DNA of 64,000 nt from Pseudomonas tensinigenes (GCF_014268445.2 NZ_CP077089.1:3961501-4025500); one strand, 5' to 3'; numbered from the stretch's first letter, positions 27,532 through 43,607 are shown. A program made the numbers and translations. Notes: generated by a model from the letters alone, not told the origin.

Positions 27532-28611
27532 TTAAAGGATGTCGGCGATGGCTTTACCGACGTCTTGCGTCGCGCCTTTTCCGCCGAGATCCGGGGTAAT
27601 CGGGCCGTCGGCAATCACCTGCTCGATTGCCCGCAATATCCCGTCATGCGCGGCCCGATAACGCTCATCACCGTTGCCGAGAAAATCGAGCATCAAAGCA
27701 CCGGACCAGATCATCGCAATCGGATTGGCAATGTTCTGCCCGTAGATATCCGGCGCCGAACCATGCACCGGTTCGAACAACGAGGGAAAACGGCGCTCAG
27801 GATCGAGGTTGGCCGAAGGCGCAATGCCGATGGTTCCGGCACACGCCGGCCCCAGGTCGGACAGGATGTCGCCAAACAGATTCGAGGCCACGACCACATC
27901 AAATCGATCCGGTTGCAAGACGAACCGTGCGCAGAGGATATCGATGTGTTGCTTGTCCCAGGTAACTTGCGGGTAGTTCGCCGCCATCAACGCGGTGCGC
28001 TCGTCCCAGTAGGGCATGCTGATGGAAATGCCGTTGGACTTGGTCGCCGCCGTCAGACGCTTGCGCGGGCGGCTCTGGGCCAGATCGAAGGCAAATTTCA
28101 GAATTCGGTCGACACCGCGACGGGTGAACACTGACTCTTGCAGCACGAACTCATGCTCGGTGCCTTCGAACATTTTTCCGCCTACCGAGGAATACTCGCC
28201 CTCCGTGTTCTCGCGGATCACCACGAAGTCGATGTCGCCCGGTTCGCGCCCGGCCAGCGGGCACGGGACACCGGGAAACAGGCGCACCGGACGGATATTC
28301 ACGTATTGGTCGAAATCACGGCGAAACTTCAGCAGTGATCCCCACAACGAAATGTGATCGGGCACCTTGTCTGGCCAGCCGACCGCTCCGAAATAAATCG
28401 CGTCGAAGCCCTTGAGCTGCTCAAACCAGTCATCGGGCATCATCTGCCCATGCTCCAGGTAGTAATCGCAGTTGGCCCATTCAAGAACTTCAATGTTCAA
28501 GTCCAACTGCCATTTGCTCGCAGCCTTCTCCAGCACACGCAAACCTTCGGGCAACACTTCCTTGCCAATGCCGTCGCCGGCAATCGCGGCGATCTTGAAT
28601 GCCTTGCTCAT
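27532..28611 (-). CDS. tartrate / D-malate dehydrogenase (decarboxylating), isocitrate dehydrogenase family
   Basis: 359 residues. IAGDGIGKEV at the start, WGSLLKFRRDFDQYVNIRPVR, ASNLFGDILSDLGPACAG and EPVHGSAPDI are the signatures of TDH/D-malate dehydrogenase, related to isopropylmalate dehydrogenase. It oxidises D-malate or tartrate with NAD+. ATG at 28611 follows GGAGGCAGG; an ATG 7 codons upstream lies in the intergenic gap. It is 26 bp after the succinate-semialdehyde dehydrogenase and probably co-transcribed. Confidence 0.88.
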   Translation of the reverse strand: MSKAFKIAAIAGDGIGKEVLPEGLRVLEKAASKWQLDLNIEVLEWANCDYYLEHGQMMPDDWFEQLKGFDAIYFGAVGWPDKVPDHISLWGSLLKFRRDFDQYVNIRPVRLFPGVPCPLAGREPGDIDFVVIRENTEGEYSSVGGKMFEGTEHEFVLQESVFTRRGVDRILKFAFDLAQSRPRKRLTAATKSNGISISMPYWDERTALMAANYPQVTWDKQHIDILCARFVLQPDRFDVVVASNLFGDILSDLGPACAGTIGIAPSANLDPERRFPSLFEPVHGSAPDIYGQNIANPIAMIWSGALMLDFLGNGDERYRAAHDGILRAIEQVIADGPITPDLGGKGATQDVGKAIADIL

Positions 28612-28637
28612 TGAACCTGCCTCCCCATGCATGTGAA

Positions 28638-30095
28638 TTACAGCCCGCCGATGTGGAAGGCTTTGACTTCAAGGTATTCATCCAGGCCGTACTTGCTGCC
28701 CTCGCGGCCTAGCCCCGATTGCTTGATACCGCCGAACGGCGCGACGTCCATGGAGATGATTCCGGTATTGAGGCCGACCATGCCGAACTCCAGCGCTTCG
28801 CCGAACCGCCAGGAGCGGCGCAGATCCTGGGTGAAATAGTAGGCACCCAAGCCATACGGCGTGGCATTGGCCAGGGCGAGCGCTTGCGCCTCATCGTCAA
28901 ACCGCATCAACGGCGCCACCGGGCCGAAGGTTTCTTCGTTGGCCAGCAGCATGCCGGCATGCGCATCGCTCAGAACGGTGGGTTGCACGAACTGGCTGCT
29001 GGCATCCGGCATGCCGCCACAGAGCAAGCGCGCGCCCTGAGTCAGCGCATCGTCGATGTGCCGCGCGACTTTGCTTACCGCGGCCGGGTTGATCAGCGGG
29101 CCAATCGTGACGTCAGCCTCCAGGCCATTACCGACCTTGAGCTTGCCGACCTCTTCCACCAGTCGCTGAGCGAAGCGTTCATAGATGCCGTTTTGCACAA
29201 GGATGCGGTTGGCACACACGCAAGTCTGGCCGGCATTGCGAAATTTGCTGAGCATGACCCCGGCCACGGCCTGCTCCAGATCGGCGTCATCGAAGACAAT
29301 GAAGGGCGCGTTACCGCCCAACTCCAGACTCAAACGCTTGATGTGCTCGGCGCTCTGGCGCATCAGCAAACGGCCTACAGGGGTCGAGCCGGTAAAGGAA
29401 ATCTTGCGAACTGTCGGGTTGCCGGTCAGCTCTTCACCAATGCCGGCGGGCATTCCGGTCACCACATTGAACACACCGGCCGGAATACCGACACGTTCTG
29501 CCAATACCGCCAGCGCCAGCGCCGACAGCGGTGTGAGATCCGACGGTTTGACAATGATCGGGCAACCCGCCGCCAGCGCCGGCGCGCATTTTCGGGTGAT
29601 CATCGCATTGGGGAAGTTCCACGGCGTGATCGCCGCGCAGACGCCGACCGGTTGTTTCAAGGTCAGCAGCCGACGGTCGCCGCCAGGTGCCGGCATGGTT
29701 TCGCCGTAGACACGGCGGGCCTCTTCAGCGAACCACTTGACGAACCCGGCACCGTAGCGGATTTCGCCTTTGGCTTCGTTCAGCGGCTTGCCCTGTTCGC
29801 AGGTCATGATCAGTGCCAGATCATCGAGGTTGTCGATCATGGCCTGATACCAACGCTCGAGCAAAGTGGCGCGCTCGGCGGCCGGGCGCGCACGCCAGGC
29901 TGGCCAGGCCTTGTCGGCGGCCTCGATGGCGCGGCGGGTCTCCGTGCCTTGCATGGCCGGCACCCGGGCAAGCAACTGACCGCTGGCCGGATCAATAACG
30001 TCGAGGGTCGCGGCGTCATCGGCGCCGATCCACTGCCCGTTTATATAAGCGAGTTCTGCCAAAAGGCTGGAGTCTTTCAAACGATTCTTGAGCAT
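28638..30095 (-). CDS. gabD: succinate-semialdehyde dehydrogenase (NAD(P)+)
   Basis: 485 residues. The catalytic Cys is in FRNAGQTCVCANR and the general base Glu in LELGGNAPF; PWNFPNAMI and the CEQGKPLNEAKGE segment are typical of GabD/SSADH. It oxidises succinate semialdehyde to succinate, or a related aldehyde. It starts just after a REP-like palindrome that separates it from the deacylase gene. The tartrate/D-malate dehydrogenase gene follows at 26 bp. Confidence 0.88.
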   Translation of the reverse strand: MLKNRLKDSSLLAELAYINGQWIGADDAATLDVIDPASGQLLARVPAMQGTETRRAIEAADKAWPAWRARPAAERATLLERWYQAMIDNLDDLALIMTCEQGKPLNEAKGEIRYGAGFVKWFAEEARRVYGETMPAPGGDRRLLTLKQPVGVCAAITPWNFPNAMITRKCAPALAAGCPIIVKPSDLTPLSALALAVLAERVGIPAGVFNVVTGMPAGIGEELTGNPTVRKISFTGSTPVGRLLMRQSAEHIKRLSLELGGNAPFIVFDDADLEQAVAGVMLSKFRNAGQTCVCANRILVQNGIYERFAQRLVEEVGKLKVGNGLEADVTIGPLINPAAVSKVARHIDDALTQGARLLCGGMPDASSQFVQPTVLSDAHAGMLLANEETFGPVAPLMRFDDEAQALALANATPYGLGAYYFTQDLRRSWRFGEALEFGMVGLNTGIISMDVAPFGGIKQSGLGREGSKYGLDEYLEVKAFHIGGL

Positions 30096-30256: not shown

Positions 30257-31414
30257 TCATTGTTTCAGCGAACCCAGCAAACCCTGAAGAAACCGCTCCC
30301 CGGCCTCCATCTGACTGACCTCGATAAACTCATCCGGCTTGTGCGCCTGCTCGATCGAACCCGGCCCGCACACCACCACCGGCACATCCAGACGCTGCTT
30401 GAACAAACCGCCTTCCGTGCCGAAAGACACCTTGGACACACCGGTATCCGGCGCGGCGAAGTTTTTCAGAAAGCGCACGGCTTCGACGCTCGGATGCGTG
30501 TCGAGCCCAGGATAGACATTCAGCGTTTCGATCTCGATGGCGGCGACGCTCGACAGTAAACGCGCCTCGCGCACGATCAGCTCGGCGCGCTCCTGCATCT
30601 GCGCGAGAAACTGGTCCAGATCATCGGCCGGCAAGTTGCGCACCTCGAAGTCCAGAGTGCACAGATTGGGCACGATGTTCAGGGCCCGCCCGCCACCAAT
30701 CTGACCGACATGCACCGTGGTGTAAGGCACGTCGTAATCCGTATCCTGGGCGCCCTGCTCCTGCAATTGGCGCTGACTGTCGCGCAGTGCGGCGATAAAG
30801 TCGCAGGCCACGTGAATCGCATTGACCGAGCGAGGCGCCAGTGAGGAATGCGCTTCCAGGCCACGACAGTAGGTGCGATAGGAGCCCTTGCCCTTGTGCC
30901 CGAGTACGAACTGCATGTTGGTCGGCTCGCCAATCAGGCACAGAAACGGGCGCACCGGGGCTAGATGCAAAACGTCGAGCAAGCGCCGCACACCGACGCA
31001 GCCGGTTTCTTCGTCGTGGGACAATGCCAGTTGCAATGGCCGGTTCAGCGAATGGTCGGCAGCGTCGAGCATCGCGTCGATGGCCAAGGCAATGAACCCT
31101 TTCATGTCGCAACTGCCGCGCCCGTAAATTCGCCCGTCCTGCAGGGTCGCCTGAAACGGCTCAAGCGTCCACGCCTGCCCTGCCGCCGGCACTACGTCGG
31201 TGTGCCCGGACAGCAGGATACCCGGCACGCCTTGCGGGCCGGTGCTGGCGAACAGGTTGGCTTTCCTGCCGGTTTGGTCTTTGACGATCAGCGACTCGAT
31301 GCCCTTGCTCAGCAGCAATTCGCGGACGTAATCAATCAGGGCCATGTTCGACTCCGAAGAGACTGTGTCGAACGCCAACAAACGCTTGAGAATCTCCAGT
31401 ACGCGCGGCTTCAT
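30257..31414 (-). CDS. argE: M20 deacylase, acetylornithine deacetylase (ArgE) type
   Basis: 385 residues. Metal-binding motifs GHTDVVPA, GRGSCDMKG, DEETGCVG and GEPTN, and a closing PGSIEQAHKP, match ArgE. It removes an acyl group from the nitrogen of an amino acid. In Pseudomonas the arginine pathway usually uses ArgJ, so inside this uptake/oxidation cluster a role on another N-acylated amino acid is more likely; this is inference. The ATG overlaps the stop of the preceding FAD gene (ATGA). Confidence 0.85.
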   Translation of the reverse strand: MKPRVLEILKRLLAFDTVSSESNMALIDYVRELLLSKGIESLIVKDQTGRKANLFASTGPQGVPGILLSGHTDVVPAAGQAWTLEPFQATLQDGRIYGRGSCDMKGFIALAIDAMLDAADHSLNRPLQLALSHDEETGCVGVRRLLDVLHLAPVRPFLCLIGEPTNMQFVLGHKGKGSYRTYCRGLEAHSSLAPRSVNAIHVACDFIAALRDSQRQLQEQGAQDTDYDVPYTTVHVGQIGGGRALNIVPNLCTLDFEVRNLPADDLDQFLAQMQERAELIVREARLLSSVAAIEIETLNVYPGLDTHPSVEAVRFLKNFAAPDTGVSKVSFGTEGGLFKQRLDVPVVVCGPGSIEQAHKPDEFIEVSQMEAGERFLQGLLGSLKQ

Positions 31415-32565
31415 GAGGCTTTGCTCCGTTGCTCGGTCAGGGTGGCGAACCGGCGGATGGAGAACGGTTCAATCGAGGTGCTGGTGCTGCCGGTGCTGAT
31501 CAGTTCGGCCATGACGTCACCCACCCCAGGGCCGAGCTGGAAGCCGTGACCGCAGAATCCGAAGGCATAGAACAAACCGTCAACCGTGCCGCTCGGTCCC
31601 ATGATCGGCAAGGAGTCCGGCAGATAACCTTCAATGCCACTCCAGACGCGGATGATGTTCAGATTGCCGACACCTGGCAGCAGGCGCCGCATCTGTTCCA
31701 TCTGATTGAGCAGACTGCGCGGCTCGAAATAGGCGCGGCGATTGAGCATGTCCGGCTTGCTGCGGTAGCCGCCACCGATGACGATGTTGCCGCGCGGAAT
31801 CTGCCGAAAATAGATCACTTCCTCGGCGATCTTGGTGTAAACGCCAATCACCGTCGGCAACGCGTACGGCACCGGCTCGGTCACGGCCATTTGCGGGCCG
31901 TGGGTGCCCAGCGGCACCGGTTCGCCGAATTGTTGCGACAGCTTCTGCCCCCACGCACCGGCAGTAATCAACAACTGTGCCGCGCTGAACTGGCGGCCAT
32001 CGGTGGTGCTGACGCGAAAATCGCCAGCAACCTTTTGCACTTCGGCCACTTCAGTCTGTTCCTCGATCCGCGCCCCCTGACGCCGTGCTGCCCGGGCAAA
32101 TGCAGGTGCCGCCAGGCGTGGATTGGCGTGACCATCGTGCGGAGCGTAAGAGCCACCCTTGACGTCTGGGCCAAGGAAGGGAAAGCGCTCATGCAACGCT
32201 TGGCCACGGTAGATTTGCAGATCCAGTTGCGCCGCTTCCGGCGCGTTGGCATACGCCTCCAGTTCGGCAATTTCGTCGTCGCGATAACACACGCGCATGT
32301 GCCCGCTGGCGATGAACTCCAGGTCGTCATCGATCAGTTCCGGCAAGCGCTTCCACAATGCCCATGAACGGTTGGCCAGTTCCAGTTGCCCCAGATAGCG
32401 GCCCTGACGACGGACGTTGCCGAAGTTGACACCGCTGGCGTACTGGCCGATCTGGTCACGCTCAAGCAGGATCACCGAGTGCCCGCGACGACGCAGGAAA
32501 AACGCTGCCGCCGAGCCCATCAAGCCACCGCCGACAATCACCACATCAGCTTTTTCAACAGTCAT
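31411..32565 (-). CDS. FAD-dependent oxidoreductase, opine oxidase subunit B / D-amino acid dehydrogenase type
   Basis: 384 residues of the DAO family. FAD motif VVIVGGGLMGSAAAFFLRRRGH starts near residue 8; SGVNFGNVR and FCGHGFQLGPGVG near the end contact the flavin. GAGGAGGTG precedes the ATG at 32565. Together with the next two upstream proteins it matches the three-part dehydrogenases represented by octopine/nopaline oxidases and LhpBEF. It overlaps both neighbours by 4 bases, so the subunits should be made together. Confidence 0.85.
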   Translation of the reverse strand: MTVEKADVVIVGGGLMGSAAAFFLRRRGHSVILLERDQIGQYASGVNFGNVRRQGRYLGQLELANRSWALWKRLPELIDDDLEFIASGHMRVCYRDDEIAELEAYANAPEAAQLDLQIYRGQALHERFPFLGPDVKGGSYAPHDGHANPRLAAPAFARAARRQGARIEEQTEVAEVQKVAGDFRVSTTDGRQFSAAQLLITAGAWGQKLSQQFGEPVPLGTHGPQMAVTEPVPYALPTVIGVYTKIAEEVIYFRQIPRGNIVIGGGYRSKPDMLNRRAYFEPRSLLNQMEQMRRLLPGVGNLNIIRVWSGIEGYLPDSLPIMGPSGTVDGLFYAFGFCGHGFQLGPGVGDVMAELISTGSTSTSIEPFSIRRFATLTEQRSKAS

Positions 32566-33938
32566 GGCGACACCTCCTCGGTGAACATCGAAAGCGGTTT
32601 GACCGGCGCCTGGCCGCGTTGTCGACCGACCTGCTGCACGCTGACACCCGCCGCTGCCGCGATCACCTCGGCCCCGGCCTGGGAACAATAACGGCCCTGA
32701 CAGCGGCCCATGCCGACCCGGCTGAACGCTTTGGCACGGTTGACCTCACAGGCGCCCTTCTCGCTGACAGTGCGGCGCAGCTCACCGGCGCTGATCATTT
32801 CGCACCGACAGACAATGGCAGCGTCCGGCAACGCCGCAGCTTGCTGCGCAGGCCAGGGAAAGGCTTGCGCCAGACCAAGACGAAACTGATCCATCACCAC
32901 CAGCGCCTGCCGTTGTTGCTCACGCAGACCGGCGTTTACCGGTTGGTTCAAATCTTCCAGCAAGGCCATGGCCACCAGTCGCCCGGCGTGCTCAGCCGCA
33001 TCGGCACCGCGAATTTTCGCGCCGTCGCCGGCAGCGTAGACACCGCTGACCGACGTGCGCCCCGCGTCGTCGACCGCCAGCCACCACTGGCCGGACGCCT
33101 GGTCAAAAGCCATCCGGCATCCCGCCAGATCCGCCAACTGAGTTTCCGGACGCAAGTGATAACCCAGCGCCACGGCATCGCAATCCAGACTCAGCGTTTC
33201 ACCTTTACCGGTGCGTATCCGCACGCCGCTGACGCCGCTGGCTGCATCACCCAGTACCTGCAACGGCTCGACGCCGAGATGCACCGGTATCTTTGCCCGA
33301 TACAACTGCGCCAACAATTTCATCCCGGTCAACAGCACGCCGGGGCGCGCGAGCAATTTCGGCAGTGCGCCGATGCGCTTGTGCAGCGGCGAGGTGTCCA
33401 GCACCGCGGCCACCGTCGCCCCGGCTTTCACATACTGACTGGCAACCAGATACAGCAACGGCCCGCTGCCCATGAACACAACGCTGCGACCAATCGACAC
33501 CGCTTGCGACTTGAGCGCAATCTGCGCCCCGCCAAGGCTGTAAGTGCCCGCCAGTTGCCAGCCTTCAATCGGCATCAGCCGGTCAGTGGCGCCCGTGCAG
33601 AGCAGCAACGCGTCGTAATCCAGCGTCGAGTGCCGGCCCTGACTGACGCAGCACAATTGTCCCGGCGTGAGGTTCCACACCAGGGTGTCCGGGCGATAGT
33701 CGATCCGCTCGCGCAGGTGATCAAAGCTCTCATGCAGGTCTTGCGCCTTATGCGCTTCGCTGCCGTACAGCGTGGCGTAATTGCGGGTGAATCCCTCGGG
33801 CTGGCGACGATAGATTTGTCCGCCGTCGCGGCGATTTTCATCGATCAGCGTCGGTTTGAAACCGGCCGCCACCAACGTTTCGGCACAACGAATGCCCGCA
33901 GGCCCGGCGCCGACAATGACTATGCGTGCAATGGCCAT
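32562..33938 (-). CDS. FAD/NAD(P)-binding subunit with C-terminal Fe-S region (HcnB/OoxA type)
   Basis: 458 residues. IVGAGPAGIRCAE starts near residue 8; a second nucleotide fold is VFMGSGPLLYLVASQY. The C-terminal 80 residues hold CRCE and CQGRYC, four cysteines of a BFD-like [2Fe-2S] binding unit. Homologues are subunits of hydrogen cyanide synthase, opine oxidase and D-hydroxyproline dehydrogenase. It overlaps the ferredoxin-like gene before it and the DAO subunit gene after it. Confidence 0.88.
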   Translation of the reverse strand: MAIARIVIVGAGPAGIRCAETLVAAGFKPTLIDENRRDGGQIYRRQPEGFTRNYATLYGSEAHKAQDLHESFDHLRERIDYRPDTLVWNLTPGQLCCVSQGRHSTLDYDALLLCTGATDRLMPIEGWQLAGTYSLGGAQIALKSQAVSIGRSVVFMGSGPLLYLVASQYVKAGATVAAVLDTSPLHKRIGALPKLLARPGVLLTGMKLLAQLYRAKIPVHLGVEPLQVLGDAASGVSGVRIRTGKGETLSLDCDAVALGYHLRPETQLADLAGCRMAFDQASGQWWLAVDDAGRTSVSGVYAAGDGAKIRGADAAEHAGRLVAMALLEDLNQPVNAGLREQQRQALVVMDQFRLGLAQAFPWPAQQAAALPDAAIVCRCEMISAGELRRTVSEKGACEVNRAKAFSRVGMGRCQGRYCSQAGAEVIAAAAGVSVQQVGRQRGQAPVKPLSMFTEEVSP

Positions 33939-34228
33939 TTTGCCTCCGGTTGCGTGGTGACAATGTCCAGGCCTTCACGCACTTCATTGGAACAGGCGCG
34001 CAAACGCTCGCCGCTGCGCGTCCAGACCCAGCAATCCTGGCAGGCGCCCATCAGGCAAAACCCGGCGCGTCGACCTGAATCAAACTCCGATTGACGCAAG
34101 GCATTGCCGTGAGTCAGTACGGCAACCATCAACGTGTCACCCTGCAACGCTTGCACCTGCGCACCATCCACCGTCAGGTTGACGCTAGGTCGCCCCTGTT
34201 CGGCCAGCCTTACAAAACGCCCGCTCAT
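33920..34228 (-). CDS. [2Fe-2S] ferredoxin-like subunit of the dehydrogenase
   Basis: 102 residues with Cys58-x4-Cys63-x2-Cys66-x12-Cys79, the plant-type [2Fe-2S] pattern (GFCLMGACQDCWV). It is the small subunit of the same three-part enzyme, carrying electrons from the flavins. It overlaps the FAD gene by 19 bp and the ATPase gene by 4 bp, so it is in one tight operon with the importer. Confidence 0.9.
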   Translation of the reverse strand: MSGRFVRLAEQGRPSVNLTVDGAQVQALQGDTLMVAVLTHGNALRQSEFDSGRRAGFCLMGACQDCWVWTRSGERLRACSNEVREGLDIVTTQPEAKWPLHA

Positions 34229-36066
34229 GCATAGGCTCCCTGACTCAGATTGATGACATCGCGCTGGGTTTTCAGCAGTTCGACGCTGTCGTGGTGACAG
34301 AGAATTTCACTGCCGCCGTCAATGTTGCGACGCACAGGCGCGCTGCGATTGCACAGGCCATCGACCCGCACCGGACAGCGGTCGAGGAACGTACACAGTT
34401 CTGGTTCGTCGGATCTGGCCCCCACCGGCGGCAGTTCCCCACACGTCGTGCCGCAATTCTCCAGCCAGCCCTGGCGCAGTTCCGGGACAGAATGAATCAG
34501 CAAGTCGGTGTAGGGGTGAAACGGCGGCTGGGCAAATGCCTGACGCGTCCCAGCCTGAACTTTGTGGCCGCTGTACATCACCACAATGTCATCGCACAGC
34601 GCCCGCACGGTGGAGATGTCGTGACTGATAAACAGGTACGAAACGCCCAGCTCCTGACGCAGATCACGCAACAGTTCGAGAATCGCCGCACCCACCACCG
34701 TGTCCAGTGCCGAGGTCACTTCATCGCACAGGATCAAGTCCGGTTTTGCCGCCAGCGCACGTGCCAGGTTGACCCGTTGTTTTTGCCCGCCGGACAGTTC
34801 ATTCGGCCGACGTTCGGCCAGGGTTCGGGGCAAACGCACCAGATCGAGCAGTTCGCCGATTCGTTCGTGCAACGCCGCGCCCTTGAGGCCAAAATACATT
34901 TTCAGCGGCCGACCGAGGATGGTGCTGACACTGTGCATCGGGTTAAGCGCGGTATCGGCGTTTTGAAAGACCATCTGTATCCGTCGGAACTGCTCATCGG
35001 TGCGTTCGGACAGGCAGCCGCCGAGTGGCTGACCATCGAAGGTCAACCCGCCCAGCGCCGGACACAGCAACCCCGCCACCACCCGCGCCAGCGTCGACTT
35101 GCCGGAACCGGACTCACCGATCACGCCAATGGCCTGCCCGCGACGCACGGTCAGATCAATGTCTTCCAATACGCGGATCGCCGGCATGCCGTGCGTGTTC
35201 TTGTTGCCGTAGCCAGCGGTCAGGCCTTTGATGGTCAGCAGCGGTTGCTCTTCAGCAATGCCGCAGGGTGGCCGGATCGAGGTGTCCGGGCGCGCGGCGG
35301 CCAACAGGCTGCGGGTGTATTCATGGGCCGGCCCCTTCAACAACGGCGCGGTAGCGCTCTGTTCGAATATCCGGCCGCCATTGAGCACCACAATCTGGTC
35401 AGCCATTTGCGCCACCACCGCCAGATCGTGGGACACGTAGACAGCGGTCGCACCCCGTTCGCGAACCACCCGTTTGAAGGCACGCAACACGTCGATCTGG
35501 GTGGTCACATCGAGGGCGGTGGTCGGTTCATCGAGGACCACCAGCAACGGATCGCTGATCAGCGCCATCGCCGCCATCACCCGCTGCAATTGCCCGCCCG
35601 ACACCTGATGCGGATAACGTTGGCCAATGCGCTCAGGGTTCGGTAATGCGAGGTCGCGAAACAACGCGATGGCTTTGGCCTCGAGCACCGCACGGGTGCC
35701 CAAACCGTGAATCAATGCGCCCTCCACCACTTGATCTAGCAGTCTTTTTGCCGGATTGAACGCCGCCGCCGCGCTTTGCGCGATGTACGACACACGGTTG
35801 CCGCGCAGTTTTTGCAGTTCTTTTTCGCTGAGGGCCAGCATGTCGTGCTCACCGACCTGCACCACTCCGCCGGACAACCGGCAGCCACGCCGGGCGTACC
35901 CGAGCAAGGCCAGGGCGATGGTGGTTTTGCCCGACCCGGACTCACCGATCAGCGCCAATACTTCGCCTTTTTCCAGGGCGAAACTCACGCCTTTGACGAT
36001 TTCGCTTTCACCGCGCTCGCCACACGCGACCACCCGCAAGTCTTCGACTCGAATCAATTGGCTCAT
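34225..36066 (-). CDS. dipeptide/oligopeptide-type ABC transporter ATPase, fused two-domain
   Basis: 613 residues with two nucleotide-binding domains: Walker A GESGSGKTT and GESGSGKST, ABC signatures VSGGQLQR and LSGGQKQR, Walker B VLDEPTT and LCDEVTS, each followed by an SHD. It is a DppD-DppF-type fusion, energising the importer whose permeases are the next two genes. It is separated from the DppC-like gene by 1 bp. Confidence 0.92.
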   Translation of the reverse strand: MSQLIRVEDLRVVACGERGESEIVKGVSFALEKGEVLALIGESGSGKTTIALALLGYARRGCRLSGGVVQVGEHDMLALSEKELQKLRGNRVSYIAQSAAAAFNPAKRLLDQVVEGALIHGLGTRAVLEAKAIALFRDLALPNPERIGQRYPHQVSGGQLQRVMAAMALISDPLLVVLDEPTTALDVTTQIDVLRAFKRVVRERGATAVYVSHDLAVVAQMADQIVVLNGGRIFEQSATAPLLKGPAHEYTRSLLAAARPDTSIRPPCGIAEEQPLLTIKGLTAGYGNKNTHGMPAIRVLEDIDLTVRRGQAIGVIGESGSGKSTLARVVAGLLCPALGGLTFDGQPLGGCLSERTDEQFRRIQMVFQNADTALNPMHSVSTILGRPLKMYFGLKGAALHERIGELLDLVRLPRTLAERRPNELSGGQKQRVNLARALAAKPDLILCDEVTSALDTVVGAAILELLRDLRQELGVSYLFISHDISTVRALCDDIVVMYSGHKVQAGTRQAFAQPPFHPYTDLLIHSVPELRQGWLENCGTTCGELPPVGARSDEPELCTFLDRCPVRVDGLCNRSAPVRRNIDGGSEILCHHDSVELLKTQRDVINLSQGAYA

Positions 36067-36067: not shown

Positions 36068-36943
36068 TCAATGACCTCCCGAACGGCGACTGCGGCGAGA
36101 CGACAGTCTGTCGATAAACAGATTCACGCCAATGGTCAGGGTGCCGATTGCCAGTGCCGGAATGACGATGGCCGGGGCGCCCTGATTGAGTCCGCCGATA
36201 TTTTCGCGCACCAGCGAACCAAGGTCGGCGTCGGGTGGTTGCACGCCCAGACCAAGGAAGCTCATGCCACTGAGCAGCAACACAATAAAGCCGAACCGCA
36301 GGCCCAGATCGGTCAGCACCGGGTTGAGCATGTTCGGCAGGATTTCCACACAGGCAATGTACAGGCGCCGTTCGCCACGGGTACGCGCCACTTGCACGTA
36401 CTCCAAAGCCTCGATGTTCACTGCCATGCTGCGGGCAATGCGAAAGGCCCCGGGAGCGAAGCTCAGCACGGCGGTGCATACCAGCAACATCACCGACGAA
36501 CCAAACGCCGAGACCATGATCAGCGCGAGCATCTTGCTCGGGATCGAGATGAACGCGTCCATCAGGCGACTGATCACTTCGTCCAGCCATTTTGGCGACA
36601 CCACAGACAGCAGCGCGCAACTGGTGCCCAGGCCACTGGCCAATATCGCCGCAATCAACGCCAGGCCCACCGTGAAGCGGGCGCCGACGAGCACGCGGCT
36701 GAGCATGTCACGGCCCAGATAATCAGTGCCGAACGGGTACAGGGCACTGATGCTGTCAAAGACATTGTCCGACACCACTTCGCCCACCGGATGGGGTGCC
36801 AGCCACGGGCCGAACATTGCCACCAGCAACCACAGAAGGCACATCGCAGCACCGATCAGACCCAGCCAGGCCGGGCCATGGGACACCTTGCCCACCGACA
36901 GGTCGGGCGCTGAAGGCGTCGATTTCACAATGAGATTGTTCAT
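36068..36943 (-). CDS. ABC permease, DppC/OppC type
   Basis: 291 residues with about six membrane spans and the permease motif region EALEYVQVARTRGERRLYI. A short extra N-terminal segment is typical of DppC. ATG at 36943 overlaps the stop of the DppB-like gene by 4 bp. A run of TDYLGRDMLSRVL is also characteristic. Confidence 0.9.
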   Translation of the reverse strand: MNNLIVKSTPSAPDLSVGKVSHGPAWLGLIGAAMCLLWLLVAMFGPWLAPHPVGEVVSDNVFDSISALYPFGTDYLGRDMLSRVLVGARFTVGLALIAAILASGLGTSCALLSVVSPKWLDEVISRLMDAFISIPSKMLALIMVSAFGSSVMLLVCTAVLSFAPGAFRIARSMAVNIEALEYVQVARTRGERRLYIACVEILPNMLNPVLTDLGLRFGFIVLLLSGMSFLGLGVQPPDADLGSLVRENIGGLNQGAPAIVIPALAIGTLTIGVNLFIDRLSSRRSRRSGGH

Positions 36944-37896
36944 TGGTTTCTCAGCCTCGGGTTGGACAAAATGGCGCACAGGTCGGCGAGCAGCACCAGC
37001 CCCAGGTACGCTGTACAGAACAACATGGTGCAGGCCTGAACCAGTGCCATGTCACGGTTGGTCACGGCATCGACCATCAGGCTGGCGATACCGGGATAGT
37101 TGAAGATGGTCTCGACGATGACCACCCCGCCCAGCAGGTAGGAAAGGCTCAGGGCGATGGCGTTGGCAATCGGCCCGATCGCGTTGGGCAAGGCGTGCCG
37201 CAGTACGATACGGATCGGGCTGACCCCTTTGAGCCGAGCCATTTCCACGTAAGGACTGTCGAGTTGATCGATCACCGCTGCGCGGGTCATGCGGGCCATT
37301 TGCGCGACGATCACGCAACACAGGGTCATCACCGGTAAAGCGTAAGTGCGCATGAATTGCCACGGTGAAGTGATGTCGCTGGCATAGGACAGCGCCGATA
37401 ACCAACCCAGGTTTACCGCGAAGATCAGCACCGCCAGGGTCGCCACCAGAAACTCCGGAACGGCGACCATGGCCAGGGTGAAAAAGCTCAGCAGGCTGTC
37501 GAGTCGCCCGCCCCTTCCCATCGCCGAACCGATGCCCAGAATCAGCGCCACCGGTACCGAAACCAATGCAGTAGCGCCGGCCAGCATCAAGGTGTTGGGG
37601 ACGCGCCCGGCCATCAGCTCACCCACCGGCATGGCGTTGGAAACCGACAGGCCCATGTCGCCACTGAGCAAGTTCATCAGCCAGTGCAAGTAGCGCAACA
37701 CGCCGGGCTGATCGAGGCCCAGTTTCAGGCGCAACGCCGCGACCTGCTCCGGCGTGGCGAACTGCCCAAGCGATTGTTGCGCGGCGTCGCCCGGCAATAC
37801 CGCCGTGATCGCGAACACGACCATGGACACAATCAACAACGTCACGATCGCGGCGCCCATGCGCCGGCCGATCAACCACAAGGTGTTGCTGTTCAT
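36940..37896 (-). CDS. ABC permease, DppB/OppB type
   Basis: 318 residues, six membrane spans, with PGDAAQQSLG after the first span and YVEMARLKGVSPIRIVLRHA, the usual DppB permease contact loop. ATG at 37896 follows GGAGG. Forms the channel with the DppC-like protein. The substrate-binding protein gene is 45 bp upstream. Confidence 0.9.
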   Translation of the reverse strand: MNSNTLWLIGRRMGAAIVTLLIVSMVVFAITAVLPGDAAQQSLGQFATPEQVAALRLKLGLDQPGVLRYLHWLMNLLSGDMGLSVSNAMPVGELMAGRVPNTLMLAGATALVSVPVALILGIGSAMGRGGRLDSLLSFFTLAMVAVPEFLVATLAVLIFAVNLGWLSALSYASDITSPWQFMRTYALPVMTLCCVIVAQMARMTRAAVIDQLDSPYVEMARLKGVSPIRIVLRHALPNAIGPIANAIALSLSYLLGGVVIVETIFNYPGIASLMVDAVTNRDMALVQACTMLFCTAYLGLVLLADLCAILSNPRLRNQ

Positions 37897-37941
37897 CGCC
37901 TGTCCTCCTGCACTGTTACTGCCGCTCAAACCGACGGCTTA

Positions 37942-39579
37942 TCAAGCGTCCAGCCAGACCTGCTCGGCGAACATGTAACCCATGAAGCCGCCCAGCGGAT
38001 TGCTGCTGTAGCCTTTGATGCGCTGGTCAACGCCATCGATGTTGCTGATGAACACCGGCACGCCGATGCCGCTGTGGTCGTGCACCAGCGATTGCATATC
38101 GGCGTACATCTTGCTGCGCTTGGCGTCGTCGGTTTCGGCGCGGGCGAGCATCAGCAGTTGGTCGAACTGATCGTTCTGCCAACCGGACTCGTTCCACGGC
38201 GCTTTCGACTGGAAGAACTGCGAGAACATCACGTCGGCGTTCGGCCGCGGGTTGATGTTGCCGAAGCTCAGCGGGTGCTTCATCCAGTGGTTGGACCAAT
38301 AGCCGTCGCTCGGCAGACGGTTGACGTCGAGTTTCAGCCCGGCCTGTTTCGCCGATTGCTGCAACAGCACCGCGATATCCACTGAACCGGTGGCGGCCGG
38401 CGATGCGACCAGCGGCATGCTGATGTTTTCCATCCCGGCTTTCTTCAGCAGGAACCGGGCTTTTTCCGGGTCATAGACGGTTTGTGGCAGGTCGGCGTTG
38501 TAATAGCGCGAACCCGGCGCAATCGGATGGTCGTTGCCGACCACGGCAAAGCCACGGAACACCGCCGATTTGACCTGCTCGCGGTCGAGCAGATACTTCA
38601 TCGCCTGGGTGAATTCGGCGCTTTTGCCGGGCATCTGATCCTGACGAATGATCAAATCAGTGTAGTTGCCCGACGGCGCATCAACGACCCGATGCTTGGC
38701 ACTGGCCTTGATCCGGGTGGTAGAACGCGGATTGACCTCATTGATCATGTGTACGTCGCCGGAAAGCAGCGCGTTGACCCGCGACGGTTCGTCACCAATG
38801 GCGATGAACTCGATTTCGTCGAGGTACGGCAGGCCTGGTTTCCAGTAACCGGTGTTGCGCGCAGCCACCGAACGCACGCCCGGTTTGAATTCCTTGACCT
38901 TGAACGGCCCGGTGCCGATGCCCTGATTGAAGTCGGTGGTGCCTTCGGGAACGATCAGCAGGTGCGACACCGCGAGAATCGACGGCAGCTCTGCGTTGGG
39001 GGCGCTCAGGCGGATCTGTACTTCGTTGGTGCCGGTAGCCTTGATCTCGACGAACTGCTCCATCAGCGGCATGACTTTCGAACCGGTGAGCGGGTCCTTG
39101 TGTCGCGACAACGAAAACACCACGTCGGCGGCGCTCAGGGTCTTGCCGTTGTGGAAGGTCACGTCTTTGCGCAGGGTGATGGTCCACACGGTGGCGTCGG
39201 TGTTGTCGATGCGCTCGGCCAGTTCCAGTTGCGGCACCAGATGCGAGTCGAATCGGGTCAGGCCGTTGTAGAACATGTAGTGGCGCACATAATCGGTGGA
39301 CAACGCGCCTTTGGCCGGGTCGAGGGTGTCCGCCGTGGAACTGGACATCCCGGCGACACGAATGCGCCCGCCCGGTTTGCCTTTGCCCGGTGTTGCCGCT
39401 TCATCGGCGAACAGCTTGCCGGCAGCGCCAAACAGGCTGCCGGCGCCCGCCGCGGCGACCCCCGCGACACCGAGCATTTGCAGGGCATGACGGCGTGACA
39501 TGCCACGATTGAGGCCCTCGAAAACCCGCAGGCTTTCTTCGCCGGAGATCAGGGGTGAGTCGTTCTTGTTGTCAGTCAT
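37942..39579 (-). CDS. ABC substrate-binding protein, family 5, Tat-exported
   Basis: 545 residues. The twin-arginine signal SRRHALQMLGVAGVAAAGAG lies near residues 28-47. The family 5 pattern DTLDPAKG, DVVFSLSRHKDP and IGTGPFKVKEFKPG follows. A Tat signal is known for some of these, and means it folds before export. ATG at 39579 has AGGTAG upstream. It supplies the ABC importer; ligand unknown, larger than a single amino acid is typical. Confidence 0.9.
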   Translation of the reverse strand: MTDNKNDSPLISGEESLRVFEGLNRGMSRRHALQMLGVAGVAAAGAGSLFGAAGKLFADEAATPGKGKPGGRIRVAGMSSSTADTLDPAKGALSTDYVRHYMFYNGLTRFDSHLVPQLELAERIDNTDATVWTITLRKDVTFHNGKTLSAADVVFSLSRHKDPLTGSKVMPLMEQFVEIKATGTNEVQIRLSAPNAELPSILAVSHLLIVPEGTTDFNQGIGTGPFKVKEFKPGVRSVAARNTGYWKPGLPYLDEIEFIAIGDEPSRVNALLSGDVHMINEVNPRSTTRIKASAKHRVVDAPSGNYTDLIIRQDQMPGKSAEFTQAMKYLLDREQVKSAVFRGFAVVGNDHPIAPGSRYYNADLPQTVYDPEKARFLLKKAGMENISMPLVASPAATGSVDIAVLLQQSAKQAGLKLDVNRLPSDGYWSNHWMKHPLSFGNINPRPNADVMFSQFFQSKAPWNESGWQNDQFDQLLMLARAETDDAKRSKMYADMQSLVHDHSGIGVPVFISNIDGVDQRIKGYSSNPLGGFMGYMFAEQVWLDA

Positions 39580-39672
39580 ATCAGTGCTACCTGTCGAAGA
39601 TGAGAAGGCTCGAGTGTTCCGGTTGACCGGAACGTCCTGAAACGCAAACGACGGTGACGCCACAACAGCAAC

Positions 39673-40947
39673 TCAATGCAGATAATCCTGAAAGCGGTAA
39701 TACGCGCCCACGAACGGCAAAAACCAAGGCTTGCCGAAATGCCCGGGGATGGCTGGCCATTCAAGTTCGCGCCACGGATTGGCCTCGACGTTACCCGCCA
39801 TCACCTCGGCCATGACCTGGCCCATGTGTACCGACATCTGTACACCGTGGCCGCTGTAACCCATGGAGTGAAAAACCCCGCCATGCTGACCGGCCCGAGG
39901 TAGCCGATCGGAGGTCATGTCGACCAGTCCGCCCCAGCAGTAGTCGATCTTCACCTCGGCCAATTGCGGGAACATCTGCACCATGGCGGCTTGCAGAACC
40001 TTGCCGCTCTTGACGTCGTTGACGCTGTCGGACATGGCGAACCGCGCGCGGCCGCCAAACAGCAAACGGTTGTCCGGGGTCAGGCGAAAGTAGTTACCGA
40101 TCATGCGGCTGGTGACATAGGCGCGACGACACGGCAGCAATTGTTCGATCAACGCGTCTGGCAATACCTCGGTAGCGATGACGAAACTGCCGACCGGAAC
40201 GATGCGCCGCCGATACCAGCTCAAGCCGCCGTGTTGACAGGCGCCAGTGGCGAGCAGCACCTGCCCGGCGTGCAGCGAACCCTTGCTGGTATTGACCTGA
40301 TAGCCGCCGGCCTTGGCCTTCCAATCCAGCACCGAAGTGCCTTGATGGATCAGAGCACCGTGCCGCGCCGCCGCTTCGGCCAAGCCGACGCCGAAGCGGC
40401 CGACGTGCATTTGCACGCCGTTGCGTTGCAGCAGAGCGCCGTGAAACTGTGCCGAATTCACTTCAGCGCGAGTCTGCTCGGCGGACAACAACTCGACATC
40501 GGCATCGACCTCACGACGAATCAGCTCACAAGTGCGCGCCAGGCCTTCGTAGTGCATGGGTTTGGCGGCCAGTTTCAGCTTGCCGTTGCGGATCAGGTCG
40601 CAGGCGATCTGCTCCTGCTCCACCAGCGAAACAACACTTTGCACTGCTCGCTCATACGCCTGGTAATAGGTGCGCGCCCTGTCCGCACCGAGGCTGGCAC
40701 TGAGGCCGGCGTAATCCTGGGCCACTCCGGTGTTGCATTGCCCACCGTTACGCCCCGAAGCTTCGCCGATCACTCGCCCGGCTTCGAGCACCACCACACT
40801 GGCACCCTTGAGCGCCAAGGCGCGGGCCGCCGCCAACCCGGTGAAACCACCCCCCACGACGGCCACATCGACCTGCGCGGGCAATGCGCCGAGTTGCCCA
40901 CCGGTGAAGGCCGGCGCGGTGTCGAGCCAGTAGGATTCACTGCCCAT
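39673..40947 (-). CDS. FAD-dependent oxidoreductase, PuuB/gamma-glutamylputrescine oxidase type
   Basis: 424 residues of the DAO family, beginning MGSESYWLDTAP. FAD motif VVGGGFTGLAAARALALKG; RNGGQCNTG is the PuuB-like flavin region; GYSGHGVQMSV closes the active site. It should oxidise a secondary or primary amine to an aldehyde and releases H2O2 or reduces a quinone. It lies 94 bp upstream of the importer's binding-protein gene on the same strand. Confidence 0.85.
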   Translation of the reverse strand: MGSESYWLDTAPAFTGGQLGALPAQVDVAVVGGGFTGLAAARALALKGASVVVLEAGRVIGEASGRNGGQCNTGVAQDYAGLSASLGADRARTYYQAYERAVQSVVSLVEQEQIACDLIRNGKLKLAAKPMHYEGLARTCELIRREVDADVELLSAEQTRAEVNSAQFHGALLQRNGVQMHVGRFGVGLAEAAARHGALIHQGTSVLDWKAKAGGYQVNTSKGSLHAGQVLLATGACQHGGLSWYRRRIVPVGSFVIATEVLPDALIEQLLPCRRAYVTSRMIGNYFRLTPDNRLLFGGRARFAMSDSVNDVKSGKVLQAAMVQMFPQLAEVKIDYCWGGLVDMTSDRLPRAGQHGGVFHSMGYSGHGVQMSVHMGQVMAEVMAGNVEANPWRELEWPAIPGHFGKPWFLPFVGAYYRFQDYLH

Positions 40948-40991
40948 GTCTGATTCGCCTATGCCAGAAAAAATGCCGATGCCGATGCAAC

Positions 40992-41660
40992 TCAGAGACC
41001 GACCAGCGCCGGCAGCCCGCCGATGTCAGTGATCTGCTGATAGCCGTAAAACGCATTGCCCGGGACTTCGTGACCGCGGGCGACGAAGGCCTTGTTCTTG
41101 ATCTTCATGTCGTGTGCCGGCATCAAGTCATAACGGAAGCTGGAGGACACATGCAAGATGTCTTCCGGGCCGCAGCCAAGGTTGTCGAGCATGAACTCGA
41201 ACGCCGCCAGGCGTGGCTTGTAGGCTTGTGCCTGCTCAGCGGTGAAGACCTTGTGAAACGGCGCGCCGAGTTTGTCGACGTTGGACATGATCTGACTGTC
41301 GCTGGCGTTGGAAAAAATCACCAGCGGGATCTTGTCGGCAATTTTCGACAGGCCGGCCGGCACATCCGCGTGTGGGCCCCAGGTTGGCACAGCGTCGTAG
41401 TACAGCTGACCTTCGTCGCGGTACTCGACGCCCCAACGCTTGCAGGTACGCGCCAGTGCTGTCTTGAGAATCTCGTCGTAAGGCATCCAGTCGCCCATGA
41501 CCTGATCCAGGCGATAAGCCGAGAAATCCTTGACGAACTGGTCCATCTGCTCCGCTGGCACGCGATCGGCGAAGAGTTCGCGCGTCATGGTGCCCATGTG
41601 GAAATTGGTCAGCGTACCGTAGCAGTCGAACGTAATGAATTTGGGACGAAGAAAGCTCAT
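40992..41660 (-). CDS. haloacid dehalogenase type II-like protein
   Basis: 222 residues. Nucleophile Asp12 in FDCYGTL, FSNASDSQ, Lys in AYKPRLAAFE and a SSSFRYDLMPAHD motif match L-2-haloacid dehalogenases. Whether it truly removes halogen is not known; the enzyme family has phosphatase and other members. Its gene is 44 bp upstream of the PuuB-like gene, on the same strand. Confidence 0.85.
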   Translation of the reverse strand: MSFLRPKFITFDCYGTLTNFHMGTMTRELFADRVPAEQMDQFVKDFSAYRLDQVMGDWMPYDEILKTALARTCKRWGVEYRDEGQLYYDAVPTWGPHADVPAGLSKIADKIPLVIFSNASDSQIMSNVDKLGAPFHKVFTAEQAQAYKPRLAAFEFMLDNLGCGPEDILHVSSSFRYDLMPAHDMKIKNKAFVARGHEVPGNAFYGYQQITDIGGLPALVGL

Positions 41661-42030: not shown

Positions 42031-42121
42031 CTCTGCGAGCGCGAACCTGCTCGCAAAGCGCTGTGTCAGGCAACATCAATGTCGCCTCAGACGCCCTCTT
42101 CGCGAGCAAACTCGCTCCCAC
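42031..42121. repeat. REPIN (paired REP sequences)
   Basis: CTCTGCGAGCGCGAACCTGC (42031-42050) and TTCGCGAGCAAACTCGCTCC (42099-42118) are diverged REP cores in opposite orientation about 50 bp apart. Confidence 0.7.
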
Positions 42122-42134
42122 GGTTTGATCGGCA

Positions 42135-43607
42135 TTACTGAACAATATCGATCAGCACACTCTTGAAGCGCAGATTGGCCTCGAACGCCTCGCGCCCCAG
42201 GTCCTTGCCGATACCGGAACGTTTATAGCCACCGGTGGGCAGGATGTAATCGTTACTGCGCCCGTAACGGTTGACCCACACCGTCCCCGCCTCCAGTTTG
42301 CGCACCAGGCGCAAGGCGCGATTGATATCGGCGGTGTGTACGCCCGCGGCCAGACCGTAAGTGGCGTGCGCAGCCAGACTGAGTGCCTGCTCCTCGTCAT
42401 CGAACGCCTGCACCGTCAGCACTGGCCCGAAGATCTCTTCGCAGACCGCCGGATTCTGATTGTCGACCCCGGTCAGCAACGTCGGTTGATAGTAAGCACC
42501 GCCCATCTCTTCAAACAGCCCGCCGCCGGTCAACACCTCAGCCCCGGCCTGGCGCGAGCGCTGGACGATGCCATCAATACGACTGGCCTGCAGCCGCGAA
42601 ATGATCGGTGACAGCGTGCTTTGCGACGACCAGGTAGGGCCGGGACGCAGCGTCTCGAAATAAGCCTGCAAGTGCGCCAGGAAGGGTTCCATGATCGAGC
42701 GCTCAATCAACAGCCGTGAGCCGGAGACGCACACCTGGCCAGCGTTACCGGTAATTGCCAAGGCCACGGTGCGCGCGGTTTTGGCAATGTCGGGGATATC
42801 GGCGAAGACCAATTGTGGACTTTTGCCACCGAGCTCCAGTGTGACCGGTTTGGGCCCGACCAGCGCGCACGTCGACATGATGCTCGAACCGGTTGCCGTG
42901 GAGCCGGTGAACGTCACTTTACCCACACGCGGATGTCGGCACAGTGCGTCGCCCGTCACACGGCCATCCCCCTGCACGACGTTGAAGATGCCGGCCGGCA
43001 GCCCCGCGAGCAACGCCAGTTCAGCAAAGCGCAGACTGGAGAACGGCGTCAGCTCTGAAGGTTTGAGCACCACGGCATTGCCCGCAGCCAAGGCTGGCGC
43101 GACCTTCCAGGACGCCATGCTCAGCGGAAAATTCCATGGCGCAATGGCGGCGATCACCCCATAGGGTTCAGCAATCTGCATGCCCAGGCGATCAGTCTGG
43201 GTGGCGGCGACCTGACCGCCATGCTTGTCCGCCAGTTCGGCAAAAAAACGAATGCCTTCGGCCACATAGGGAATATCCCAGGCGATCACATCTTTGTGCG
43301 GGCGGGTTGAGCCGACGGCTTCCAGAGGCGCAAGAATCTCCGCGTCCGCCTCAATCAGATCGGCCCAGCGCCGCATCACCCGCGCCCGCTCGCGCGGTGG
43401 ACGGCTGGCCCAGTCGCTGCGATTGAAGGCCTGCCAGGCATTATTGACGGCTTCGTCCACCAGGTCGGCATCCGCCACCGGTAGTTCGGCATAGACCTGG
43501 CCGTCGGAGGGGCGAACCACTTCCAGCCCTGAATGCGCATCGCGGTATTGACCGTCAATGAAGTGGGCGCTGCGAACAGCGATAAGGCGGGGATCGAAGC
43601 TATTCAT
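42135..43607 (-). CDS. aldehyde dehydrogenase, PuuC/betaine-aldehyde type
   Basis: 490 residues. Asn in PWNFPLSM, Glu in LELGGKSP, catalytic Cys in GNAGQVCVSG. The family includes gamma-glutamyl-gamma-aminobutyraldehyde and betaine aldehyde enzymes. With the PuuB-like oxidase nearby it may oxidise the aldehyde that enzyme forms. ATG at 43607 is preceded by GGAG. It is divergent from the acetyltransferase gene across 242 bp. Confidence 0.88.
   Translation of the reverse strand: MNSFDPRLIAVRSAHFIDGQYRDAHSGLEVVRPSDGQVYAELPVADADLVDEAVNNAWQAFNRSDWASRPPRERARVMRRWADLIEADAEILAPLEAVGSTRPHKDVIAWDIPYVAEGIRFFAELADKHGGQVAATQTDRLGMQIAEPYGVIAAIAPWNFPLSMASWKVAPALAAGNAVVLKPSELTPFSSLRFAELALLAGLPAGIFNVVQGDGRVTGDALCRHPRVGKVTFTGSTATGSSIMSTCALVGPKPVTLELGGKSPQLVFADIPDIAKTARTVALAITGNAGQVCVSGSRLLIERSIMEPFLAHLQAYFETLRPGPTWSSQSTLSPIISRLQASRIDGIVQRSRQAGAEVLTGGGLFEEMGGAYYQPTLLTGVDNQNPAVCEEIFGPVLTVQAFDDEEQALSLAAHATYGLAAGVHTADINRALRLVRKLEAGTVWVNRYGRSNDYILPTGGYKRSGIGKDLGREAFEANLRFKSVLIDIVQ

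Follow-up and report, generated by a model that had tools for sequence, protein, structure and literature searches.

A Pseudomonas tensinigenes gene cluster with a candidate role in the catabolism of N-substituted azetidine-2-carboxylates

What is degraded by a conserved Pseudomonas gene cluster that combines its own ABC importer, flavin-dependent amine dehydrogenases and a haloacid dehalogenase-like (HAD) protein? The question is raised by a 64,000-nucleotide stretch of Pseudomonas tensinigenes DNA (GCF_014268445.2, NZ_CP077089.1:3961501-4025500), called the window below, with positions counted from its first letter; the genome is one 6.62-Mb contig, and the relatives found in the searches were Pseudomonas. 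The initial annotation had placed one catabolic set at 27532-43607, with its own importer and a three-part dehydrogenase, for an opine-like or acylated amine. The genes it named are real, being minus-strand open frames of matching families, and the idea of a conserved catabolic set with an Opp-type importer and a [2Fe-2S]/FAD/FAD dehydrogenase, plausibly for an N-substituted amino acid, was borne out. Its boundaries were too narrow: GabT, HAD2, Lrp and a GhrA-like reductase (23638-27413) had been omitted, and the full set is the importer cluster together with these four genes, reaching left to 23638. From the gene content we infer, as regards both substrate and activity, a pathway for the catabolism of N-substituted azetidine-2-carboxylates, to which we give even chances. 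The HAD protein, previously treated as a side item, is central to this proposal, because HAD chemistry and a tail of GabT, aldehyde dehydrogenase (ALDH) and TtuC point to azetidine-2-carboxylate (AZC) and not to a generic opine or acyl amine.

The ring-opening and lower steps are assigned to the following genes, in which AC2H denotes L-azetidine-2-carboxylate hydrolase and SSADH succinate-semialdehyde dehydrogenase.

24171..24827, minus strand: HAD2, an AC2H-derived HAD protein, probably inactive (PDB, tree and residue comparison; no match to any Pfam family)
24923..26227, minus strand: GabT-type class III aminotransferase, proposed 4-amino-2-hydroxybutanoate transaminase (TIGR00700, 530 bits against a cut-off of 507)
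27532..28632, minus strand: TtuC/DmlA-type tartrate / D-malate dehydrogenase, decarboxylating (TIGR02089, 550.1 against 470.4 bits)
28638..30095, minus strand: ALDH2, SSADH type, proposed malic-semialdehyde dehydrogenase (TIGR01780, 682 bits against 646; PDB 3jz4, SSADH)
40992..41660, minus strand: HAD1, type-II HAD hydrolase, proposed ring-opening hydrolase on N-substituted azetidine-2-carboxylate (TIGR01428, 162 bits against 125)

The lower route, from (2R)-4-amino-2-hydroxybutanoate to pyruvate, is the best-supported part of the proposal and one that we consider probable. According to its PDB title, structure 8hp7, of an AC2H-type enzyme, is a K152A mutant that traps (2R)-4-amino-2-hydroxybutanoic acid, the product formed from AZC. 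An R-configured product that is deaminated at C4 and oxidised would give D-malate, which fits a TtuC/DmlA-type enzyme; enzymes of the TtuC type decarboxylate D-malate to pyruvate. GabT would thus convert (2R)-4-amino-2-hydroxybutanoate into 2-hydroxy-4-oxobutanoate (malic semialdehyde), ALDH2 would oxidise the latter to D-malate, and TtuC would release pyruvate and CO2. Since the stereochemistry matches, the combination of HAD, GabT, SSADH-type ALDH and TtuC makes a coherent lower pathway. The nearest solved structure to TtuC is the tartrate dehydrogenase/decarboxylase 3flk (669 bits), and the protein stays under a second model, NF006048 (476 against 501). ALDH2 exceeds its subfamily model and falls under the GabD equivalog NF008415 (718 against 828); GabT likewise falls under the finer models NF005692 (541 against 724) and NF005985 (522 against 713). 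PMC8016842 describes the beginning of such a route for AC hydrolase and AzhA: the product of AC hydrolase is 2-hydroxy-4-aminobutyrate, which is then transaminated, and Aspergillus assimilates AZC through the γ-aminobutyrate (GABA) route.

By analogy with AC2H, HAD1 is proposed as the hydrolase that opens the ring. The five best Foldseek matches of its AlphaFold model (pLDDT 81.6) were 8hp5, 8hp7, 8hp6, 8ywo and 8yvw; PDB titles name the last two L-azetidine-2-carboxylate hydrolase and the first three (S)-2-haloacid dehalogenase. Asp12 and Lys148 of HAD1 align with D12/K152 of AC2H, catalytic residues that we took from PDB mutant titles. HAD1 also passes the cut-off of the haloacid dehalogenase model TIGR01428, and dehalogenase structures are good Foldseek matches too (1zrm at rank 18), as would be expected if HAD1 were a genuine 2-haloacid dehalogenase within a pathway for a halogenated compound. 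We hold this to be very improbable, given that AC2H itself is filed in the PDB as (S)-2-haloacid dehalogenase, that AC2H-type structures outrank the dehalogenases in Foldseek, and that the scanned window genes include no halogen-related partner.

A second connection to AC2H is provided by HAD2. Its PDB matches at E 0.001 were AC2H-type chains only, and it grouped with AC2H (support 96/95) when 32 HAD proteins were placed in a tree; a sister position to 8hp5 was weaker (88/85), and the HAD2 branches are long. The position of the catalytic Lys is occupied by Asp in HAD2, while the window copy retains the nucleophile Asp; HAD2-like proteins of L155 and L157, from another cluster type, lack the nucleophile Asp as well as the Lys. 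With the catalytic Lys lost, HAD2 is probably an AC2H-derived pseudo-enzyme. In relatives (L163, L154-L157) it is kept between GabT and Lrp and may be a regulatory pseudo-enzyme.

AC2H and its orthologues were, in turn, found next to, or one gene from, homologues of the window GabT, whose next homologue in its own genome is 49% identical. G130 (L158) encodes an enzyme with 99.2% identity to AC2H 3SMV; its gene adjoins that of a GabT (66% identity to the window protein), with an ALDH (50%) and an amino-acid permease nearby and TtuC (81%) about 16 kb off. An orthologue with 78% identity to 3SMV adjoins GabT (63%) in G141 (L160), which has a second orthologue (67%) about 12 kb away, and in G044 (L161) the orthologue (81% to 3SMV) is one gene from GabT (66%). 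The other cluster type, seen at six loci (L154-L157, L159, L162), combines an AC2H-like HAD (35-38% to 3SMV), a DAO2-like flavoprotein (31-35%), GabT (69-72%) and a HAD2-like protein at all six, Lrp and TtuC (69-79%) each at five, and ALDH2 (73-77%) and GhrA (59-63%) each at four. Taken together, these clusters and the AC2H loci indicate that a GabT-ALDH2-TtuC-Lrp-HAD2 module recurs with different HADs, and that parts of it occur with the characterised AZC hydrolase. Neighbour labels in these locus surveys are best blast matches and not family tests, and statements on Lrp neighbours rest on sequence matches to family c19 together with the Pfam families of the window Lrp.

These HAD links bear on another reading of the same tail. 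The substrate could be 4-amino-3-hydroxybutyrate (GABOB), a carnitine-like compound or another hydroxylated GABA derivative, which GabT would turn into the isomeric malic semialdehyde, ALDH2 into malate and TtuC into pyruvate, with HAD1 acting elsewhere. Malic semialdehyde derived from GABOB would suit the GabT-SSADH-TtuC tail equally well, and the pairs of APH kinase and class III lyase that stand beside HAD in some relatives would suit vicinal amino alcohols. Such a substrate leaves the HAD proteins, the AC2H-derived HAD2 and the AC2H linkage without a role, and we consider it improbable.

The restriction of our proposal to N-substituted rings comes from the genes between HAD1 and ALDH2.

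30257..31414, minus strand: ArgE/acetylornithine-deacetylase-type M20 hydrolase (TIGR01892, 355.7 against 297.7; NF005710, 507 against 412)
31411..32565, minus strand: DAO1, catalytic FAD subunit of the three-part amine dehydrogenase (Pfam DAO; PDB 1y56_B, sarcosine/glycine oxidase relatives)
32562..33938, minus strand: PyrR, FAD/NAD(P)-type subunit with a C-terminal BFD [2Fe-2S] domain (Pfam Pyr_redox_2, Fer2_BFD, SO_alpha_A3)
33920..34228, minus strand: small [2Fe-2S] subunit, Fer2_4 (PF13510, 85 bits; C-x4-C-x2-C-x11-C in the sequence)
34225..36066, minus strand: fused Opp/Nik-type importer ATPase (two ABC_tran domains; above the NikD and NikE cut-offs on scores summed over both domains)
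36068..36979, minus strand: importer permease C (BPD_transp_1)
36940..37929, minus strand: importer permease B (BPD_transp_1 and BPD_transp_1_N)
37942..39663, minus strand: family-5 solute-binding protein with an invariant RR (SBP_bac_5)
39673..40947, minus strand: DAO2, AmaA-like FAD secondary-amine oxidase/dehydrogenase (Pfam DAO; AmaA model 178 bits, under the cut-off of 600)

When the longest open frames are taken, none of the ten genes from HAD1 to ArgE is more than 44 bp from the next and some overlap; real starts may be later. DAO2 had been called PuuB-like, a loose label, its best NCBIfam match being the L-pipecolate oxidase AmaA. The subunit genes for Fer2_4, Pyr_redox with BFD, and DAO are contiguous, forming a trio of the opine-oxidase/LhpBEF type, and score far under the cut-offs of the NCBIfam soxA/soxB models. 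The best PDB match of the binding protein was AgaA (103.7 bits), with DppA close behind (101.8 bits); it scored under every NCBIfam cut-off listed, including Opp5A_nikA (157 against 600) and CntA (57 against 800). Its R57 and R58 are invariant in 15 aligned homologues, and we take this RR motif to be a Tat-like signal. The AlphaFold model of the binding protein, with a pLDDT of 57, was discarded. Judged by their sequences, the importer and the flavin enzymes belong to classes that serve for opines and secondary amines. Free AZC would need neither an Opp/opine-type importer nor amine-oxidising flavoenzymes, which suggests an N-substituted AZC.

The distribution of the cluster was followed in two surveys that overlap in part, several genomes apparently being common to both. 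The locus survey covered 79 loci around HAD1 homologues, drawn from the best 80 of at least 584 matches and biased to near relatives, and the genus survey was one draw of 149 Pseudomonas-genus genomes, in which HAD1 was counted at E 1e-50 and TtuC at E 1e-120. Binding-protein rows of at most 41% identity were dropped and HAD2 rows of at most 33% counted apart, both thresholds having been set after the identity gap was seen. HAD1 was directly followed by DAO2 in 72/79 loci, and HAD, DAO2, the binding protein, permease B and the ATPase occurred together in 67/79. The clustering of HAD, DAO2 and importer is more than chance, as judged from these two counts without a random-neighbour control. The 12 loci short of this five-gene core include contig ends, loci centred on a second HAD copy (L068, L069), HAD copies in other company (L048, L061, L065, L076) and the Paraburkholderia and Trinickia loci L081, L091 and L092, at which no such importer was found. 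ALDH1 was present in 35/79 loci. Carriers outside Pseudomonas belonged to Paraburkholderia, Trinickia, Acidovorax, Aquabacterium, Polaromonas, Cupriavidus and Vibrio, and to Burkholderiales/Gammaproteobacteria; the clusters of Acidovorax (L088) and Aquabacterium (L093) also hold GhrA, Lrp, GNAT, TtuC, ALDH2 and a class III aminotransferase of another subfamily.

In the genus survey, the binding protein (at least 59% identity) was found in 30/149 genomes and HAD1 (at least 75%) in 31/149, namely the same 30 and G026; the centres of the two genes were 2.5-2.7 kb apart in all 30. HAD2 (at least 56%) occurred in 28/149 genomes, all of them among the 30 with the binding protein (Fisher 3e-28, a value that ignores shared ancestry). 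The two importer-positive genomes without HAD2 proper, G022 and G050, carry the other AC2H-like/GabT/TtuC cluster (L159 and L157, respectively). A TtuC homologue (at least 64%) was present in 28 of the 30 importer-positive genomes versus 19 of the 119 others.

These counts also bear on the opine-like or acylated amine first proposed for the region. An opine-like or acylated amino acid or amine would be imported, deacylated by ArgE and cleaved by the flavin enzymes, with its aldehydes oxidised and a minor role left for the HAD protein. AgaA, which binds an opine, is the best PDB relative of the binding protein, the three-part dehydrogenase has the opine-oxidase/LhpBEF layout, and ArgE follows the importer/dehydrogenase genes in 16/79 loci, a flank-limited count (also, for example, in L176-L181). 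AgaA is ahead of DppA by 2 bits only, however, and HAD1 accompanies the binding protein in 30/30 genomes while the three-part dehydrogenase is dispensable. HAD2 and the linkage of AC2H with GabT would also go unexplained. We therefore regard this substrate as unlikely, although less so than the other alternatives. Of the earlier view, the general idea of N-substituted amino acid catabolism survives; the opine/acyl-amine guess is only partly supported, and the three-part dehydrogenase is not the core of the cluster.

Could the region instead be a mosaic of independent units (GNAT-cupin, ALDH1, HAD-importer-ArgE, ALDH2-TtuC, GhrA and GabT-HAD2-Lrp) that share no common pathway? Terminator-like hairpins with 14-pair stems lie between units, at 41987-41956 after ALDH1 and at 30251-30220 after ArgE, and suggest that ALDH1, HAD to ArgE, and ALDH2-TtuC may be separate transcripts. 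Transcription in unrelated units with different inducers had been named by the initial annotation as counting against a single set. The hairpin scan gave 15 sites in total against 18.1 in shuffles and was not above chance level, and the hairpin after ArgE may be a repetitive extragenic palindromic (REP) element. The promoter scan of the window was uninformative (1 site against 4.3 in shuffles). ALDH1 and the cupin protein are not universal, and in G018, G035 and G066 the GabT-HAD2-Lrp unit is displaced, lying together with GhrA elsewhere in the genome. L020, L027 and L028 have this unit on the opposite flank of the cluster, no more than 10 kb away. HAD2 was found in 23/30 genomes at a distance of up to 25 kb from the binding protein, and contig ends account for some of the misses; in G047 and G067 HAD2 is on another contig, but the two parts both stop at contig ends and could belong to a single locus, so that nothing follows from their separation. 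The neighbourhood comparison thus upheld the importer/HAD core and not a constantly adjacent tail. Yet HAD2 is confined to importer-positive genomes even when distant, and the set, whose tail is not adjacent to the rest in every relative, does not dissolve. The displaced GabT-HAD2 unit of G035 has GNAT and cupin genes alongside (L167), and HAD, GNAT, GhrA, Lrp, TtuC and ALDH2 recur jointly in Acidovorax and Aquabacterium. A mosaic is accordingly quite improbable, slightly more so than a GABOB-like substrate.

Five further genes flank or complete the proposed pathway for N-substituted AZC.

23638..24126, minus strand: Lrp/AsnC-type regulator (start ATG at 24126; open frame; Pfam AsnC_trans_reg and HTH_AsnC-type; follows HAD2 in relatives)
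26445..27413, plus strand: GhrA-like D-2-hydroxyacid dehydrogenase, putative 2-oxo-4-aminobutyrate reductase (in-frame ATG at 26487; PRK15469 GhrA, 244 bits, under the cut-off of 403; adjoins GabT or GNAT in relatives)
42135..43676, minus strand: ALDH1, betaine/aminobutyraldehyde-dehydrogenase-like (in-frame ATG at 43607; Pfam Aldedh; PRK13473, 427 bits, under the cut-off of 615)
43694..44707, plus strand: GNAT acetyltransferase, divergent (Acetyltransf_18, _10, _7; in 53/79 loci)
44755..45462, plus strand: double-cupin protein after GNAT, membership uncertain (Cupin_3; in 40/79 loci)

In the upper part of the pathway, the binding protein and the Opp/Nik-type ABC importer would take up the chelator. 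HAD1, if it acts like AC2H, would attack the alpha carbon of the strained azetidine and open the ring with inversion, either in its N-alkylated form or after dealkylation. DAO2, with DAO1, PyrR and Fer2_4 where these are present, would oxidise secondary-amine C-N bonds to give C4 aldehydes or 2-oxo acids. ALDH1 would oxidise the aldehydes, GhrA may reduce 2-oxo-4-aminobutyrate, and the C4 units would converge on (2R)-4-amino-2-hydroxybutanoate; Lrp probably regulates the set. ArgE and GNAT might take part in protecting an amine, or toxic AZC, by acetylation. GNAT was also considered as an Mpr1-type AZC acetyltransferase, a candidate that had its location as sole evidence and was rejected.

The natural N-substituted AZC compounds that fit are nicotianamine and the mugineic acids, and we give slightly less than even chances to these in particular being the substrate. 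Nicotianamine is described in PMC10341464 as an azetidine ring with two aminobutyrate units. Two papers lend indirect support. In PMC7786132, P. fluorescens SBW25 is reported to deplete Brachypodium phytosiderophores, the genes being unknown, and P. putida strains are cited there as not consuming phytosiderophores. PMC7946895 states that soil microbes readily degrade mugineic acids and that soil persistence appeared greater for an analogue whose azetidine had been exchanged for proline.

Some relatives carry additional enzymes. An IlvD-type dehydratase and GhrA accompany the cluster in L187, where the IlvD/EDD-type gene (7344-9101, minus strand) lies between HAD copies and GhrA and suggests 2,3-dihydroxy acid processing; the same gene family, c83, is found in L070 and in L066, which is apparently the record that L187 also represents. 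An APH kinase and a class III pyridoxal-phosphate (PLP) enzyme occur with extra HAD copies in L061, L065, L069 (6361-9806), L071 and L187, and we take the two to be a kinase-phospholyase pair of the hydroxylysine type. These pairs adjoin a regulator, either Lrp or a GntR-like protein (c36; read from its sequence, with no family model listed at 1e-30). EutB/EutC-like (L046, L071, L191) and BhcC-like (L026) enzymes are also near the cluster, the scanned representatives scoring under NCBIfam cut-offs. Such add-on modules would suit fragments with extra hydroxyls, as in hydroxylated mugineic acids. That this is the first gene-level bacterial pathway for nicotianamine and mugineic acid catabolism, with add-on modules for hydroxylated mugineic acids in relatives, is a more tentative suggestion, to which we would not give even chances. 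A separate observation is that L190 encodes, between ALDH2 and ArgE, a methyl-accepting chemotaxis protein (8124-10166, minus strand), which may be a receptor for the substrate.

A number of findings weigh against the azetidine proposal. HAD1 shares only 29.7% identity with AC2H and forms its own clade (100/100) outside the AC2H-HAD2 group of the tree. A same-genome paralogue, L008, whose visible neighbours are unlike the HAD1 cluster, is closer to AC2H (94 bits against 72-77 for HAD1); the PDB match of HAD1 is thus not specific, and we set aside a nearest-PDB argument for HAD1 alone. A TtuC homologue is near the AC2H orthologue in one of three genomes, with none in the L160 and L161 stretches, and no further than 25 kb from the binding protein in just 19/30 importer-positive genomes, with contig ends behind some of the misses. 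Seven loci (L044, L047, L062, L063, L072, L176 and L190) lack the three-part dehydrogenase but keep HAD, DAO2, importer, ArgE and ALDH2. Loci of Paraburkholderia (L081, L092) and Trinickia (L091) have no importer of this kind beside HAD-DAO2, and Vibrio salinus is among the carriers. ArgE and GNAT have no clear step in the pathway. As to the substrate, none of the four SBW25 genes induced by iron deprivation in PMC7786132 corresponds by its description to a gene of this cluster, and iron limitation need not be the inducer of the cluster. In PMC7946895, soil persistence was judged by plant greenness, the authors see ring strain as the likely reason for the instability, and their biodegradation assay was run without the natural compound.

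Outside the set, positions 45585-50316 hold a LacI regulator, a GFO/IDH/MocA oxidoreductase, a xylose-isomerase-like protein and a Nuc_H symporter/MFS transporter, a separate neighbouring sugar/polyol set. A TonB-dependent receptor (61768-63894, minus strand) lies about 16-18 kb to the right of the cluster. At 12292-19916 (minus strand), VgrG, a type VI secretion system spike, is found with a 1562-aa RHS protein, and G+C is lower in part of this stretch (0.53-0.54 in the 12-16 kb bins).

Nicotianamine is found across the higher plants, and iron acquisition by grasses relies on secreted mugineic acids; many carriers of the cluster are plant-associated. If the proposal is true, it gives a gene-level handle on the consumption of azetidine-based plant metal-chelators by soil and plant bacteria, and bacterial phytosiderophore consumption becomes directly testable by genetics and enzymology. 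Among the matches listed for open-licence PMC papers, no title or abstract opening named genes for bacterial nicotianamine or phytosiderophore catabolism, which is weak evidence of absence.

In comparison with known systems, the cluster adds a new variant to known catabolic chemistry. It resembles the AC2H route of Pseudomonas sp. A2C (AzhA in Aspergillus nidulans) in the HAD fold with catalytic Asp and Lys, in GabT/semialdehyde-dehydrogenase-type genes downstream, in its own AC2H-derived HAD2, and in the homologues of its GabT and ALDH, and once of TtuC, that lie near AC2H orthologues. It differs in that HAD1 is of a separate clade and in the added Opp-type importer, flavin amine dehydrogenases and ArgE, whereas the AC2H loci found carry another ABC importer (the L160 binding protein is Peripla_BP_6) and, in L158, an amino-acid permease. 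GABA catabolism by GabT-GabD shares the GabT and SSADH families over TIGRFAM cut-offs; here the enzymes are under the finer GabT/GabD cut-offs and coupled to a D-malate/tartrate dehydrogenase, and the 49% GabT homologue elsewhere in the genome is perhaps the housekeeping GabT. With the importers of staphylopine, nickelophores and agropine (Cnt, Nik, AgaA), the cluster has in common a family-5 binding protein, whose nearest PDB sequence is AgaA by a small margin, Opp/Nik-type permeases and paired ATPase domains, but its ATPases are fused, the signal is Tat-like and the setting is catabolic. The opine oxidases NoxAB/OoxAB, HcnABC and LhpBEF/D-hydroxyproline dehydrogenase similarly combine Fer2_4, Pyr_redox/BFD and DAO in a trio with overlapping ends; in the present cluster, by contrast, this trio is optional and less constant than a second FAD oxidase and a HAD hydrolase.

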